Notes under the pieces: model-generated
What the model saw: only the letters and a program-made list of their open reading frames with translations
Told to the model about the DNA's origin: nothing
Databases searched by the model: none
Translations under genes and position numbers: made by a program
DNA from: Candidatus Omnitrophota bacterium
GTDB taxonomy: Bacteria > Hinthialibacterota > Hinthialibacteria > Hinthialibacterales > JAKPRU01
NCBI GenBank assembly: GCA_029570205.1
Contig: JAKQSI010000009.1
Location: forward strand, 1-5,004
Direction of reading: 5' to 3'
Length of the DNA: 5,004 nt
In this document: positions 2 through 4,826 of the stretch, piece after piece
Numbering within the stretch: the first letter of the stretch is position 1
How the letters are laid out: each line of letters opens with the position of its first letter

Positions 2-70
2 TGCACTGACGGCAACGACCCTGCCCTGACACGGGGATTATCCATGCCATTCACGGAACAGAATGAATAA
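2..70 (+). CDS. Possible C-terminal end of an upstream gene (partial)
   Basis: The frame starting at position 2 is open from the window edge to a TAA at 68-70 and would encode 22 residues ending in MPFTEQNE. The other two forward frames are closed early (TGA at 7-9 and TGA at 27-29), so this is the only forward frame that can carry an upstream gene into the next one. The stop overlaps the start of the glycosidase gene (ATG at 63-65) by 8 nt, an arrangement typical of co-translated operon neighbours. The piece is too short to show any domain, so no function is assigned. It may be chance: 22 open codons in a GC-rich sequence is weak evidence. Confidence 0.3.
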   Translation, partial: CTDGNDPALTRGLSMPFTEQNE

Positions 71-2543
71 AATCCTCATCCTGACCCTCCTCTCCCTTAT
101 CGGGAACCGGTGGTTCATCCCCACCGCGAAAGCGGCTCCGGCCATAGCTGGCGTCACGGCGCCGTCGCGGATTGGCAGATACGAAAAGTTCGAGATCACC
201 TTCGAAATAAGAAACTCCGCGGCGCGGAACTTTCAACTGCCCTTCGATCCCAACCCGCCCCGCGGCGTGGATCCCCGACAGGAACTGCACCGAGGCATCA
301 GCGTAGACGCCGAATTCACTCCGGACAATTGGAAAACGGTATATCGCCAGCCGGGCTTCTATTACCACTACTATCAGGAGAGCCGGGATAGTTCCGCGCA
401 AGAATGGAGATATCCGACAGCCAGGGCTGCATGGAAAGTGCGATTTTCTGCAAACCGTACAGGGACCTGGCACTATAGAATCCGGGCGACCGATGCCGGG
501 GGAGCCGGCGTTTCCGGGGTGTATTCCTTAACCGTCCAAGCCTCTTCCAGAAGGGGATTCCTGAAGGTCAGCAAAAGGGATCCCCGGTATTTTGAGTTCG
601 ACGATGGAAGCCTCTTCCTGGGTCCAGGCATCAACGCGGGAGGAAGCGTTACGGATCCCATAAAACACCTTGAGACCGATTTTAGCCAGCTTCAGAAGAA
701 CCGCATCCAGCTGGTTCGCAGATGGATCAGCGGGTTATATGGAGCTGCCTGGCCGCAATGGCTCGGAGGCAGGGGACTATACGACGGGTACCTCCCGCGC
801 ACGGGGATCCTGCCGTTCCATGATCCGGAACAAAACCGGGACCGAATGACGCTTTACCTCAAATATCCCGAAGACTGGCACGACGCCTGTATCATGAGAG
901 ACTGGAATACGCGCGAGGCTGTTAAACCGGATACTGCCTATAAGCTGAGCATCCGCTACTGGGGAACCAACATCAAAGGGCCACGCAAGGCCGGCCGTAA
1001 CTACGGATTGGTCGGCAAGATCACAGCCGCATGGGATCCTAAATGCTATGAACCGTCTGACGGCGCCGTCCTCACCGGCTACGGAAGAGACAGTTCCGGA
1101 TTGAATGTTATCGAGGGAATCTGGCATTCCCGGAATCGCAGCTTCCTTCCCCACGTGTACGTCGCACTGGAAAACGTGACGCACGGCGAGGCCTACATTC
1201 ACTCCATCTCCATGCGGGAACTGTTTCAGGATGGGCGCTCCGGGCCGGAGATCCTGCGGGAGTCTTCCATGGAATACGATCTCGTCATTCCAGACTTCGA
1301 GCCTTATGCACTGGACAGGTATCTGGAACTCGCGGAAAAACACGATATTTATCTGAAACTTGTCCTGATGGATAAAAACGACCCGCTGTACTACAAGCTC
1401 GAGGACGATGGGACATTCGCCATCAACGGCGAACGGGATAATCCGGACGGATTTTACGGGCTGGGCAGAGCGATGAACAGGACGAGATGGCTGCAGCAGG
1501 CATGGTGGAGGTACGCCCAGGCACGCTGGGGCTATTCGCCGAACATCCACTCGTGGGAACTCACAAACGAGGGAGATCCTTTCTCAAAAAAGCATTGGGA
1601 AATGGCCGATGAACTGGGGAAGTTCATGCACTGCGGAGTTTTCGGAGTGCCGACCGGGCGGGGCGATGCCGAACAATGCACATTTGAACATCCGAACCGC
1701 CATATGGTGACGACATCCTTCTGGCACAGTTTCCCGGCATATTCCGCCCGAACGGGCGAGGGCTTCTGGGGGAATCCCAAATACCCCAATGTCGATTATG
1801 CCGATGTCCATGCCTATACATCAACCAGCACTGCGCCTGTCGCGGACAAGCTGCTGATGGAAAAGGACGCTGCCTACTACCACCTGTGGCACAGCCGGCA
1901 ATACGGCACATGGAATCTGCATATGCCTGTCGTCCGCGGAGAAGCAGGAATGGTGCCCCATGCCGGCACCTCGGAAGCCATATCCGGTCTCGGGCTTCAT
2001 AGAGATCTGCCGGGCATCTGGTTTCACAACTACGTGTGGTCCACGCTCGGCAGCGGGGGATTGTACGAGATTTACTGGTACGCGGACCCTCACATTTATT
2101 CCAAAGGCCTTTATGATCACCGTCCGGTCGTTCTGTCCTTTCACAACTTCATGGCAGACGTCGCCCTGAATAACGGCCGGTACCGGGACCTCGAAGCAGA
2201 GACATCGAACCCGGACATTCGAGTGGTCGGCCAGAAGGATCAGACGTCCGGATCGGCCCATCTCTGGATTCAAAATAAAAGCCATACCTGGAAAAACGTG
2301 GTCGACGGAATGCCCATCCCTTCGGTCTCGGGCACCTTGCGGATAGGAGGATTCTCTCCAAAACAAACGTTTATCCTGGAGCGGTGGGACACCTTCAAAA
2401 CAATCGGGCAGCTCGTCGGAATCGAGGAATGCAGGTCTTCTGCAAACGGCTTTCTGGAAATTCCCGTAGCGTCCCTGAGAACGGACCTCGCCATAAAGGT
2501 CAAGCCCGCGGCCGGCGGGAATAGCTCGAGACCAGGCCACTGA
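63..2543 (+). CDS. Exported DUF5060-type glycoside hydrolase-like protein (clan GH-A fold)
   Basis: This 826-residue protein is predicted to be exported and to cleave glycosidic bonds in a polysaccharide. Residues 1-24 form a Sec signal peptide (MNK, hydrophobic stretch, AKA before A25). Residues about 27-157 form a beta-sandwich resembling DUF5060, including the motif TGTWHYRI. A TIM barrel follows, starting near GPGIN (187-191) and LVRRW (217-221). HSWELTNEGD (496-505) gives candidate acid/base E503. VDYADVHAY (577-585) and RGEAGM give candidate nucleophile E627, the strand-4/strand-7 glutamate pair of clan GH-A. Residues about 262-388 look like a beta jelly roll inserted in the barrel. The C-terminal domain carries WIQNKSHTW (735-743), seen in DUF5060-associated glycosidases. 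ATG 63 is chosen because the frame is closed by TGA at 27-29, and GGA at 55-57 is a weak Shine-Dalgarno site. Genes for a glycan ABC exporter follow, suggesting the exported polymer is the substrate. The exact GH family and substrate cannot be read from the sequence; activity is inferred. Confidence 0.85.
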   Translation: MNKILILTLLSLIGNRWFIPTAKAAPAIAGVTAPSRIGRYEKFEITFEIRNSAARNFQLPFDPNPPRGVDPRQELHRGISVDAEFTPDNWKTVYRQPGFYYHYYQESRDSSAQEWRYPTARAAWKVRFSANRTGTWHYRIRATDAGGAGVSGVYSLTVQASSRRGFLKVSKRDPRYFEFDDGSLFLGPGINAGGSVTDPIKHLETDFSQLQKNRIQLVRRWISGLYGAAWPQWLGGRGLYDGYLPRTGILPFHDPEQNRDRMTLYLKYPEDWHDACIMRDWNTREAVKPDTAYKLSIRYWGTNIKGPRKAGRNYGLVGKITAAWDPKCYEPSDGAVLTGYGRDSSGLNVIEGIWHSRNRSFLPHVYVALENVTHGEAYIHSISMRELFQDGRSGPEILRESSMEYDLVIPDFEPYALDRYLELAEKHDIYLKLVLMDKNDPLYYKLEDDGTFAINGERDNPDGFYGLGRAMNRTRWLQQAWWRYAQARWGYSPNIHSWELTNEGDPFSKKHWEMADELGKFMHCGVFGVPTGRGDAEQCTFEHPNRHMVTTSFWHSFPAYSARTGEGFWGNPKYPNVDYADVHAYTSTSTAPVADKLLMEKDAAYYHLWHSRQYGTWNLHMPVVRGEAGMVPHAGTSEAISGLGLHRDLPGIWFHNYVWSTLGSGGLYEIYWYADPHIYSKGLYDHRPVVLSFHNFMADVALNNGRYRDLEAETSNPDIRVVGQKDQTSGSAHLWIQNKSHTWKNVVDGMPIPSVSGTLRIGGFSPKQTFILERWDTFKTIGQLVGIEECRSSANGFLEIPVASLRTDLAIKVKPAAGGNSSRPGH

Positions 2544-2563
2544 AACGGCCCGACGAGCGCCAG

Positions 2564-2577
2564 TATTCAATTGAATA
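2564..2577. repeat. Perfect 14-bp AT-rich palindrome in the spacer before the permease gene
   Basis: TATTCAATTGAATA reads identically on both strands (two 7-bp halves, no spacer). It lies in the 98-nt gap between the glycosidase stop and the permease ATG and stands out as AT-rich within GC-rich flanks. Such a site could bind a dimeric regulator or form part of an internal promoter. As an RNA hairpin it would be poor because no loop is left, and no T-run follows, so it is not a standard terminator. No regulator is identified, and a chance palindrome is possible. Confidence 0.35.
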
Positions 2578-2634
2578 AACCCGGGGGGAGGAACGAAGCG
2601 ATAGTCCCTCCAAGAAAACCGGGCAGCTGAAATC

Positions 2635-2638
2635 GGAG
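2635..2638 (+). promoter_or_regulatory. Shine-Dalgarno site bearing on the permease start
   Basis: GGAG lies 3 nt before ATG 2642 and 9 nt before the in-frame ATG 2648. The spacing suits the second ATG better, so translation may begin at 2648, making the protein two residues shorter (MFLFRDN...). A stronger purine run, GGGGGGAGGAA at 2583-2593, is too far upstream and has no start codon at a suitable distance. Confidence 0.45.
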
Positions 2639-2641
2639 AAT

Positions 2642-3493
2642 ATGCCGATGTTTCTATTTCGGGACAATCCTGACCACGAGGTGTTGATTGAATCCACCGG
2701 CCGGTGGAAGAGACTCATCGATTTGCGGGATATTTACGAGTACCGGGACCTTCTCCGGATCATGATCTACCGCGCCATCCGCGCACGCTATGCCCAGTCC
2801 GCCCTGGGACTCTCCTGGGCCGTCATCCAACCTTTCTTTACAATGATCGTCTTCACCATCATTTTCGGCCGCCTGGTCCGAGTAGATTCCGACGGAGCGC
2901 CCTATGCCCTTTTCAGTTTTGCAGCCCTGGTGCCCTGGACCTACTTTCAGGAATCTCTCACCGATTCGGTTTCCTGTCTCATCGTCGAACAGAACACGAT
3001 CACAAAGAGCTATTTCCCCCGGATCATCCTTCCCGCTTCCCGCATTCTGGCGCGATTCGTGGATTTTCTGATTGCCGGCCTGCTATTGGCCGGAATGCTG
3101 GTCTGGTATGGCATGCCGCCCACCCCGGGAATTTTTGTTCTGCCGGTCCTGGTACTCATCCTCATGCTTGCGGCCGCAGGCACGGGATTTCTTTTTGGCG
3201 CTATGGCCGTCCAATACCGGGATATCAACTACGCGATGGCCTTTGTGACCCGCCTATTGATGTATTCGGCTCCGGTAGTTTATCCCGCCAGCATGGTGCC
3301 CGAAAATTTGCTGCCCTATTATTCGCTGAATCCGATGGTCGGAGTGGTGGAAGGATTTCGATCCGCCTTGCTGGCCACCCGGCCGATGCCCTGGGATCTG
3401 ATCCTGCCCGGCGCCGCAACCGCTGCGCTCCTCTTTATTTTTGGCACAGTATATTTCCGCAACAAAGAGCGGATCTTCGCGGATGTCGCATGA
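2642..3493 (+). CDS. wzm: ABC-2 type polysaccharide export permease (Wzm-like)
   Basis: This 283-residue inner-membrane protein is the channel-forming subunit of a glycan ABC exporter and would work as a dimer with two copies of the ATPase encoded next. The cytoplasmic N-terminus carries an amphipathic stretch with YRDLLRIMIYRAIRARYAQSALGLSWAVIQP (residues 34-64), the hallmark of ABC-2 polysaccharide/polyol-phosphate permeases (Wzm/TagG/KpsM relatives). About six hydrophobic segments follow, near residues 57-77, 87-107, 134-156, 163-190, 200-220 and 251-272. Other family motifs are SYFPRIILP (123-131), VQYRDINYA (190-198), SAPVVYPASMVPE (209-221), LNPMVGVVEGFR (229-240) and a basic end, RNKERIFADVA. 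Length is normal for the family. Upstream the frame is closed by TAA at 2576-2578. The end overlaps the ATPase gene, so the two are probably translated together. Assignment to the family is firm; the transported polymer (O-antigen, capsule or other) is not known. Confidence 0.93.
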   Translation: MPMFLFRDNPDHEVLIESTGRWKRLIDLRDIYEYRDLLRIMIYRAIRARYAQSALGLSWAVIQPFFTMIVFTIIFGRLVRVDSDGAPYALFSFAALVPWTYFQESLTDSVSCLIVEQNTITKSYFPRIILPASRILARFVDFLIAGLLLAGMLVWYGMPPTPGIFVLPVLVLILMLAAAGTGFLFGAMAVQYRDINYAMAFVTRLLMYSAPVVYPASMVPENLLPYYSLNPMVGVVEGFRSALLATRPMPWDLILPGAATAALLFIFGTVYFRNKERIFADVA

Positions 3494-4826
3494 TGCCGCC
3501 GGCCGGTGTTTAAATATGATGGGCATAACCGACACCATAATAGACGTGGAAAATCTCAGCAAGGCATACCTGCTGGGGCAAGAGGAAAAGCAGGACACCC
3601 TGGTTGCGTCCATGGCGGCGATGGTCCAGGCTCCCGTCCACAATCTGCGCCGTCTCATGAGGCTCAACACCTTCAAACTCGCCAAGGCGGATCCCGTCGA
3701 TACCGCAGATATTCTCTGGGCGCTCAAGAATATTTCCTTTCAGGTCAAACGCGGGGAATGCCTCGGCATTATCGGTCCGAATGGCGCGGGCAAATCCACT
3801 TTGCTGAAGATTCTCTCGCGAGTCACGGAGCCGACTCAGGGCCGCGTCTACATGAAGGGACGCATCTCCGCCCTGCTGGAGGTAGGAACGGGGTTTCACC
3901 CTGAACTCACCGGCCGGGAAAACATTTATCTGAATGGGACCATCCTTGGAATGAAAAAGGCGGAGATAGACCGCAAGTTCGACGCAATCGTTGATTTCTC
4001 GGGCGTTGCGAAATTTCTCGACACTCCCGTCAAACGCTATTCATCGGGAATGCGCGTTCGACTGGCCTTTTCGGTCGCGGCCCATCTCGAACCCGAGATC
4101 CTGATTGTCGACGAAGTTCTGGCCGTCGGGGATGCCGAGTTCCAGAGAAAATGCATGGGAAAGATGCAGGACGTAACGAAGGGAGCGGGGAGAACCGTTC
4201 TGTTTGTGAGTCACAATATGGCCGCCGTCCGAAGCCTCTGCGACAACGCGATTCTGCTGGAGTCGGGGCGCAATGTACTCTCCGGCACGGCCGCGGATGT
4301 TGTGGATTCGTATATGCGTGCCGCATCAACCGAAATTCTAACGGGACAGGCTCGGTTTCCTGAGGCCGACAAGTCCTCCCCCCATATGACAAAAGCAGAG
4401 ATCCGGGCCGGCGGCAACATCACGGGCAGGATACGAATGGGGGAATCCATTCAGCTGAGAATTTATTACGCATCCCCTTCTCCGCTTCGCGAACCCAAAA
4501 TCGGCTTCAGGATCATTGCTCAAACAGGGGAATCCATCATCCATTCCAGTAATCGCTATCAGGGCACTTCGAACCTATCCGGCGGCGGCGAATCGGGCTG
4601 TCTTCAGTGCAATCTTGGGATGGTTCCCCTTATGGAGGGCAGATATACCATCAGCCTCTGGTTTGGAAACGAGTCCGCGGATACCCACACCGTCCATGAT
4701 GCCTTGAAATTTGAAATTGAAGCGAGAAGCATTTCGGGCACCGGTGTGGCTCCCAACCCTCGCACCGGCTTTCTCTGGTGGCCGGTTGAATACTCCGTGG
4801 AAACGAATACGATAAATCCTGCCTGA
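3483..4826 (+). CDS. wzt: ABC transporter ATPase with C-terminal glycan-binding domain (Wzt-like)
   Basis: This 447-residue cytoplasmic ATPase powers export of a lipid-linked polysaccharide through the permease encoded just before it. The nucleotide-binding domain (about residues 20-275) shows Walker A GPNGAGKST (98-106, K104), the family motif VGTGFHPELTGRENIYLNG, signature YSSGM (186-190), Walker B ILIVDE (D210, E211), D-loop AVGD and switch histidine H244 in VSHNM. A long N-terminal insertion before Walker A, from LLGQEEKQD to VDTADILWALKN, is usual in Wzt-like proteins. Residues about 287-447 form a beta-rich domain matching the Wzt C-terminal type, with MGESIQLRIYY, MEGRYTISLWFGN and a terminal GFLWWPVEYSVE. 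In characterised Wzt proteins this domain binds the modified glycan end before export. Start: ATG 3483 overlaps the permease end by 11 nt and has GGA at 3471-3473. ATG 3516 or 3519 gives an N-terminus closer in length to relatives but lacks a visible Shine-Dalgarno site. TTG 3441 is less likely. Confidence 0.92.
   Translation: MSHDAAGRCLNMMGITDTIIDVENLSKAYLLGQEEKQDTLVASMAAMVQAPVHNLRRLMRLNTFKLAKADPVDTADILWALKNISFQVKRGECLGIIGPNGAGKSTLLKILSRVTEPTQGRVYMKGRISALLEVGTGFHPELTGRENIYLNGTILGMKKAEIDRKFDAIVDFSGVAKFLDTPVKRYSSGMRVRLAFSVAAHLEPEILIVDEVLAVGDAEFQRKCMGKMQDVTKGAGRTVLFVSHNMAAVRSLCDNAILLESGRNVLSGTAADVVDSYMRAASTEILTGQARFPEADKSSPHMTKAEIRAGGNITGRIRMGESIQLRIYYASPSPLREPKIGFRIIAQTGESIIHSSNRYQGTSNLSGGGESGCLQCNLGMVPLMEGRYTISLWFGNESADTHTVHDALKFEIEARSISGTGVAPNPRTGFLWWPVEYSVETNTINPA

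Follow-up and report, generated by a model that had tools for sequence, protein, structure and literature searches.

In a bacterium of an obscure phylum we identified, directly ahead of a Wzm/Wzt polysaccharide exporter, the gene for a predicted exported, mannanase-like glycoside hydrolase whose relatives in other phyla reside in sugar-chain assembly loci far above chance, so that a role in trimming or releasing the surface polysaccharide of the cell itself is probable. The linkage to glycan loci is solid and the function of the enzyme is unproven; we infer its export, its catalysis, the glycan of its own locus as its substrate, and its biological role. The window, that is the whole stretch of DNA analysed, is the entire 5,004-bp contig C53 of a 4.39-Mb MAG. 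Three plus-strand open reading frames, 63–2543 (826 aa), 2642–3493 (283 aa) and 3441–4826, fill this contig, and because the window is the whole contig the gene content that can be read in the MAG at this locus is limited to these three genes. The first-pass annotation of an 826-aa protein encoded immediately ahead of Wzm and Wzt was borne out, with PF01061, PF00005 and PF14524 all scoring over their cut-offs.

The first gene (63..2543; all features are on the + strand) encodes a GH5-like glycoside hydrolase of clan GH-A, modeled by AF2 with a pLDDT of 92.3 and a pTM of 0.92. Its N-terminus, read by eye as MNKILILTLLSLIGNRWFIPTAKA followed by AP, is of the Sec type, with a putative signal peptide at approximately residues 1–25 (63..137) and low pLDDT at residues 1–17; the N-termini of the relatives, also read by eye, are clearly hydrophobic and stronger than that of the window enzyme. 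In the model the signal is followed by an N-terminal beta-sandwich of the DUF5060 type (residues 27–160, 141..542), a (beta/alpha)8 barrel interrupted by an insert (residues ~165–700, 555..2162), and a C-terminal beta-sandwich (residues 701–818, 2163..2516). GH5 mannanases align with the barrel over residues 164–705 at Z 20–23. The insert (residues 249–396, 807..1250) was modeled separately as a jelly roll with a pLDDT of 91.7 and resembles CBM16 and CBM4, its top Foldseek matches being CBM16 and CBM4-2 (E ~7e-4).

No family in Pfam or NCBIfam matched the enzyme over cut-off. PF16586 (DUF5060) scored 18.6 bits in the window enzyme, below its gathering cut-off of 27.2, and is matched by 37 of the 42 relatives at E <= 0.01; the closest solved structure is also that of a DUF5060 protein. 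For the window protein itself the earlier DUF5060-type label falls short of threshold. The Pfam Cellulase family PF00150 gave no match even at E 10, so we term the enzyme GH5-like and do not file it as a Pfam GH5 member.

The profile built from the 42 relatives found ManDH5, a GH5 beta-mannanase of Dictyoglomus thermophilum (PDB 9gmj, 9gpa, 9gpc, 9gpe, 9gpg), at E 1e-60, and other mannanases weakly. ManDH5 is also the nearest solved structure (Z 35.7 over 514–518 residues, rmsd 2.8–3.2, 23–24% identity), followed by an unassigned Bacteroides protein at Z 25 and then by the GH5 mannanases. GH39 enzymes, the family of PslG, are among the weaker Foldseek matches, and the top fold matches do not bear GH39 out as the best family, the GH5 mannanases ranking far higher. 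ManDH5 and the window enzyme share the DUF5060 sandwich, the GH-A barrel, the C-terminal sandwich, into which the alignment extends as far as residue 816–817, and both catalytic glutamates. ManDH5 has 568 aa and a barrel without the CBM-like module, whereas the window enzyme has 826 aa, and the profile alignment skips the insert at residues 249–396, which has no counterpart in ManDH5.

We scored the clan GH-A/GH5-like signature as Arg, Asn-Glu, His-x-Tyr, Glu and Trp; all seven positions (R219, N502, E503, H583, Y585, E627 and W672) are invariant in the 42 sequences. The predicted acid/base E503 (1569..1571, motif HSWELTNE) aligns with ManDH5 E303, the residue mutated in the E303Q complexes, E303Q having been solved with mannotetraose. 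The predicted nucleophile E627 (1941..1943, motif RGE) aligns with the Glu of the ManDH5 motif HLVGEFG. Both the predicted barrel and the signature residues of clan GH-A are present, and together with the structural matches they support placing the modeled protein among the clan GH-A glycosidases; its N-terminus is signal-like. Two further points of the first-pass annotation, the clan (AF2 barrel, GH5 mannanases at Z 20–36) and the two candidate catalytic glutamates, agree with these results, and the Sec signal that it named is readable by eye.

The second gene (2642..3493) begins 98 bp after the enzyme gene and encodes Wzm, an ABC-2 type polysaccharide export permease (PF01061, 57.8 bits, cut-off 26.9), which the KpsM and galactan Wzm models of NCBIfam match below cut-off. 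The sole terminator-like site near the gap between the two genes, at 2632–2649, overlaps the Wzm start, and the total from the scan is within the number expected by chance. The third gene encodes Wzt, an ABC ATPase (PF00005, 85.6 bits) with a C-terminal glycan-recognition domain (Wzt_C, PF14524, 4389..4730, 52.8 bits, cut-off 30.4, residues 317–430 of the 3441 reading frame). Wzt more likely starts at the in-frame ATG at 3516, which lies beyond the Wzm stop (3493) and yields a putative protein of 436 aa (3516..4826), than at the TTG at 3441, which would overlap Wzm. The adjacent ABC2 permease, ABC ATPase and Wzt_C, each over cut-off, identify a Wzm/Wzt polysaccharide exporter with the same three components as the E. 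coli O9a type. To our knowledge the classical O9a locus, unlike the window, is without a dedicated glycosidase.

Mis-binning of the contig was rejected, as its GC content (0.56 versus 0.55 for the bin) and its tetranucleotides match the bin, the tetranucleotide distance being exceeded by 26% of chunks of its own genome. A search of the same MAG returned no second copy of the enzyme, and a second Wzt locus is present on contig C20.

A single-sequence query of genome contigs found no relatives of the enzyme; an alignment query yielded 50 loci, which we fetched with up to 10 kb per side, in addition to loci from anonymous genomes. The glycan loci in which the enzyme recurs span Acidobacteriota, Chloroflexota and the window's own phylum, and no relative was found in plasmids or in viral contigs. 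The 50 genomes (194.8 Mb) contain 70 occurrences of Wzt_C; in the 690 kb of flank examined the domain lies near the enzyme in 4 loci versus 0.22 expected (P 6e-5). For the ten closest loci the count is 3 versus 0.064 expected (P 2e-5), or 2 when the sister loci L045 and L050 are merged (P 0.0017). Strict assembly markers, with seeds from the same or a sister locus left out, were detected in 6 of 9 close loci and in 0 of 26 stretches drawn at random from those genomes (P 5e-5); with sisters merged they were detected in 5 of 8 (P 2e-4), and with seeds from the test loci included, in 7 of 9 versus 0 of 26. These counts show that the closest relatives are non-randomly linked to loci for glycan assembly, and the enrichment of Wzt_C near the relatives indicates that the adjacency of enzyme and exporter is not accidental.

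The first-pass annotation had proposed counting how often a Wzm/Wzt pair lies near homologues of the enzyme, and had taken a family living mostly away from exporters, or beside SusCD, as evidence against its reading. The excess of Wzt_C agrees with that reading; family-wide, Wzm or Wzt lies within ~10 kb in just 6 of the 50 fetched loci, so homologues are indeed mostly away from exporters. The SusD part of the objection did not materialize: no enzyme locus matches any of six SusD proteins taken from the 6 Bacteroidota genomes of the set that have SusD. Two apparent Wzt matches were not counted as they are other ABC ATPases, the one in L062 having ABC_tran without Wzt_C and the one in L052 adjoining BPD_transp_1 permeases.

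In the tree, the window and L042–L051 form a close clade. Seven of its nine loci with real flanks are glycan-assembly loci and four hold Wzm; the flanks of L048 were too short to score. The locus with an enzyme 66% identical to that of the window (L042) reads GT4, GT4, enzyme, Wzm, Wzt, PQQ, GT2, GT4. In L045 and L050 a PQQ gene overlaps the enzyme start and Wzt-Wzm-GT2 lies 7–9 kb away. The enzyme is accompanied by Wzz, Wzy and GT2 in L046, by Wzy, a WbaP-type transferase and GT2 in L047, by Wza, GT2 and, near the contig end, Wzm in L049, and by an adjoining WbaP-type transferase in L043, while the flanks of L044 and L051 hold no assembly genes. Outside the close clade, L081 and L083 read GT2, Wzy_C, enzyme, Wzm, Wzt, and L033 reads enzyme, Wzz, Wzy, GTs, Wzm, Wzt. 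Wzm and then Wzt directly follow the enzyme in L042, L081 and L083, and lie within its 10-kb surroundings in L045, L050 and L033; two distinct lineages of the enzyme, window/L042 and L081/L083, have the enzyme-Wzm-Wzt order. Pfam confirmed Wzy_C, Wzz, Bac_transf, Poly_export and GT1/GT2 in the enzyme loci. The recurrent link is to glycan-assembly loci in general (Wzy, Wzz, Wza, WbaP-type transferase, glycosyltransferases) and is found mainly in the closest clade. The remaining, more distant loci mostly contain a PQQ-propeller neighbour, dockerin proteins, sulfatases or housekeeping genes.

These neighbourhoods bear on two other readings. An enzyme secreted as a catabolic mannanase for plant or other foreign polysaccharide, with an accidental place beside Wzm/Wzt, would fit the beta-mannanase ManDH5 as nearest solved relative, the specialised carbohydrate fermentation of the sister species of D. 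thermophilum (PMC5167688), and the many distant relatives outside glycan loci. We consider it unlikely, as Wzt_C and assembly markers are enriched around the closest relatives, the loci are without SusD, and the enzyme directly precedes Wzm-Wzt in two lineages. It also seems quite unlikely that the enzyme attacks polysaccharides in the matrix of its neighbours, or recycles polymer that has been shed, while being co-regulated with the cell's own polymer and not acting during export. The predicted extracellular architecture with its CBM-like insert, and the dockerin-like tails and dockerin neighbours of some relatives, would suit such a role. What argues against it is that in the closest clade the enzyme gene sits among Wzy, Wzz and Wza in assembly loci.

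The steadiest neighbour of the enzyme across the family is a secreted PQQ_2/BamB-like beta-propeller protein (L042:8758-10236, L045:6690-9869, L050:6642-9818, and also in L046, L051, L058 and L063–L078), the gene overlap with the enzyme start being 4 bp in L045 and L050. This protein is perhaps a partner of the enzyme or a glycan binder. The window contig ends 178 bp after Wzt; a PQQ-propeller query for the neighbouring contig gave only weak matches, in the interior of other contigs, none of which could be named as the neighbour. The large enzyme is also encoded by several Patescibacteria with small genomes (L051–L062), where it either has a dockerin-like tail (L051, L061) or adjoins dockerin genes; in most cases these bacteria are without Wzt_C exporters.

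In the Chloroflexota members the protein closes with a few hydrophobic residues, for example IYLPFIL or IFLPILL (L045:12436-12490; L050:12379-12424; L066, L052), possibly a sorting tail. Downstream of Wzt are NeuB in L083, and a cytidylyltransferase-like start (L081:20139) and FkbH/DUF4910 genes in L081, a gene content that suggests nonulosonic-acid glycans in Chloroflexota surface-polymer loci.

The retaining mechanism of clan GH-A permits transglycosylation, and Chloroflexota, which include relatives of the enzyme, are thought to be without LPS onto which a glycan could be ligated. The barrel might accordingly transfer exported chains to a surface acceptor, anchoring them with no hydrolysis; we regard this as very unlikely, since the sequence has no specific sign of it and the solved kin are mostly hydrolases.

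The enzyme and the exporter differ in conservation. The window and L042 share 66% identity in the enzyme and 41% in Wzm; for L081 and L083 the values are 61% and 44%. Placed in one tree alongside 35 other Wzt proteins, the enzyme-linked Wzt are scattered and require 6 changes, compared to a shuffled mean of 6.6, and a single ancient GH-Wzm-Wzt unit was rejected on this result. The better conservation of the enzyme than of Wzm, together with the ungrouped Wzt, indicates that no single lineage of exporters goes with the enzyme; the alternatives are an exchange of exporters at a fixed locus and a move of the enzyme itself. Loci with the same gene order and a far better conserved enzyme look as if the exporter had been replaced in them. 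The 10–11 kb read at two further Wzm/Wzt loci of the L042 and L081 genomes contain no such enzyme. A tentative reading, which we hold at less than even confidence, is that this unnamed GH-A subfamily (DUF5060 sandwich, barrel with inserted CBM, C-terminal sandwich, often an adjoining PQQ beta-propeller gene) is a portable glycan-processing module of several phyla that has repeatedly joined varied Wzm/Wzt or Wzy-type export loci independently of the exporter.

On balance we favour a dedicated, exported, retaining GH5-like endo-beta-glycanase of the surface-polysaccharide locus. Synthesis of the polymer would take place in the cytoplasm and its export through Wzm/Wzt; the enzyme would leave the cell via Sec, bind the polymer with the CBM-like insert, and cut internal beta-linkages with E503 as acid/base and E627 as nucleophile. 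Cutting may trim chain length, release the polymer from the cell, or clear stalled or mis-localised chains. The substrate backbone is perhaps mannose- or glucose-like and beta-linked. Against this role stand the few relatives with an exporter nearby (6 of 50), the other surroundings of the distant relatives, the further Wzm/Wzt loci read without the enzyme, the differing histories of enzyme and exporter, and the naming of the nearest solved relative, ManDH5, as a mannanase.

The window pairs a GH-A hydrolase with a Wzt that carries Wzt_C, whereas VexL belongs to the polysaccharide lyases, has another fold and is part of a KpsMT-like capsule system. According to two papers that cite Liston et al. 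2018 PNAS (PMC9597891, PMC9603273), VexL of Achromobacter denitrificans is a depolymerase of the Vi antigen and cleaves polymer in connection with an ABC transporter-dependent polysaccharide system; on this account, dedicated depolymerases in ABC-dependent systems are already known. BcsZ and PgaB are hydrolases of synthase-dependent systems (PMC7112194). PslG, PelA, PgaB and BcsZ resemble the window enzyme as exported glycosidases encoded with polymer assembly machinery, and differ in glycosidase family and export route, the window polymer being one exported by an ABC transporter. Hydrolases acting on their own polymer are thus well described for synthase-dependent systems, and for ABC-dependent export the literature we found points to VexL alone. 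A GH5-like enzyme that recurs in glycan loci is an expressible candidate for the cutting or release of surface glycans in largely uncultured bacteria, and a possible tool for cutting such glycans.
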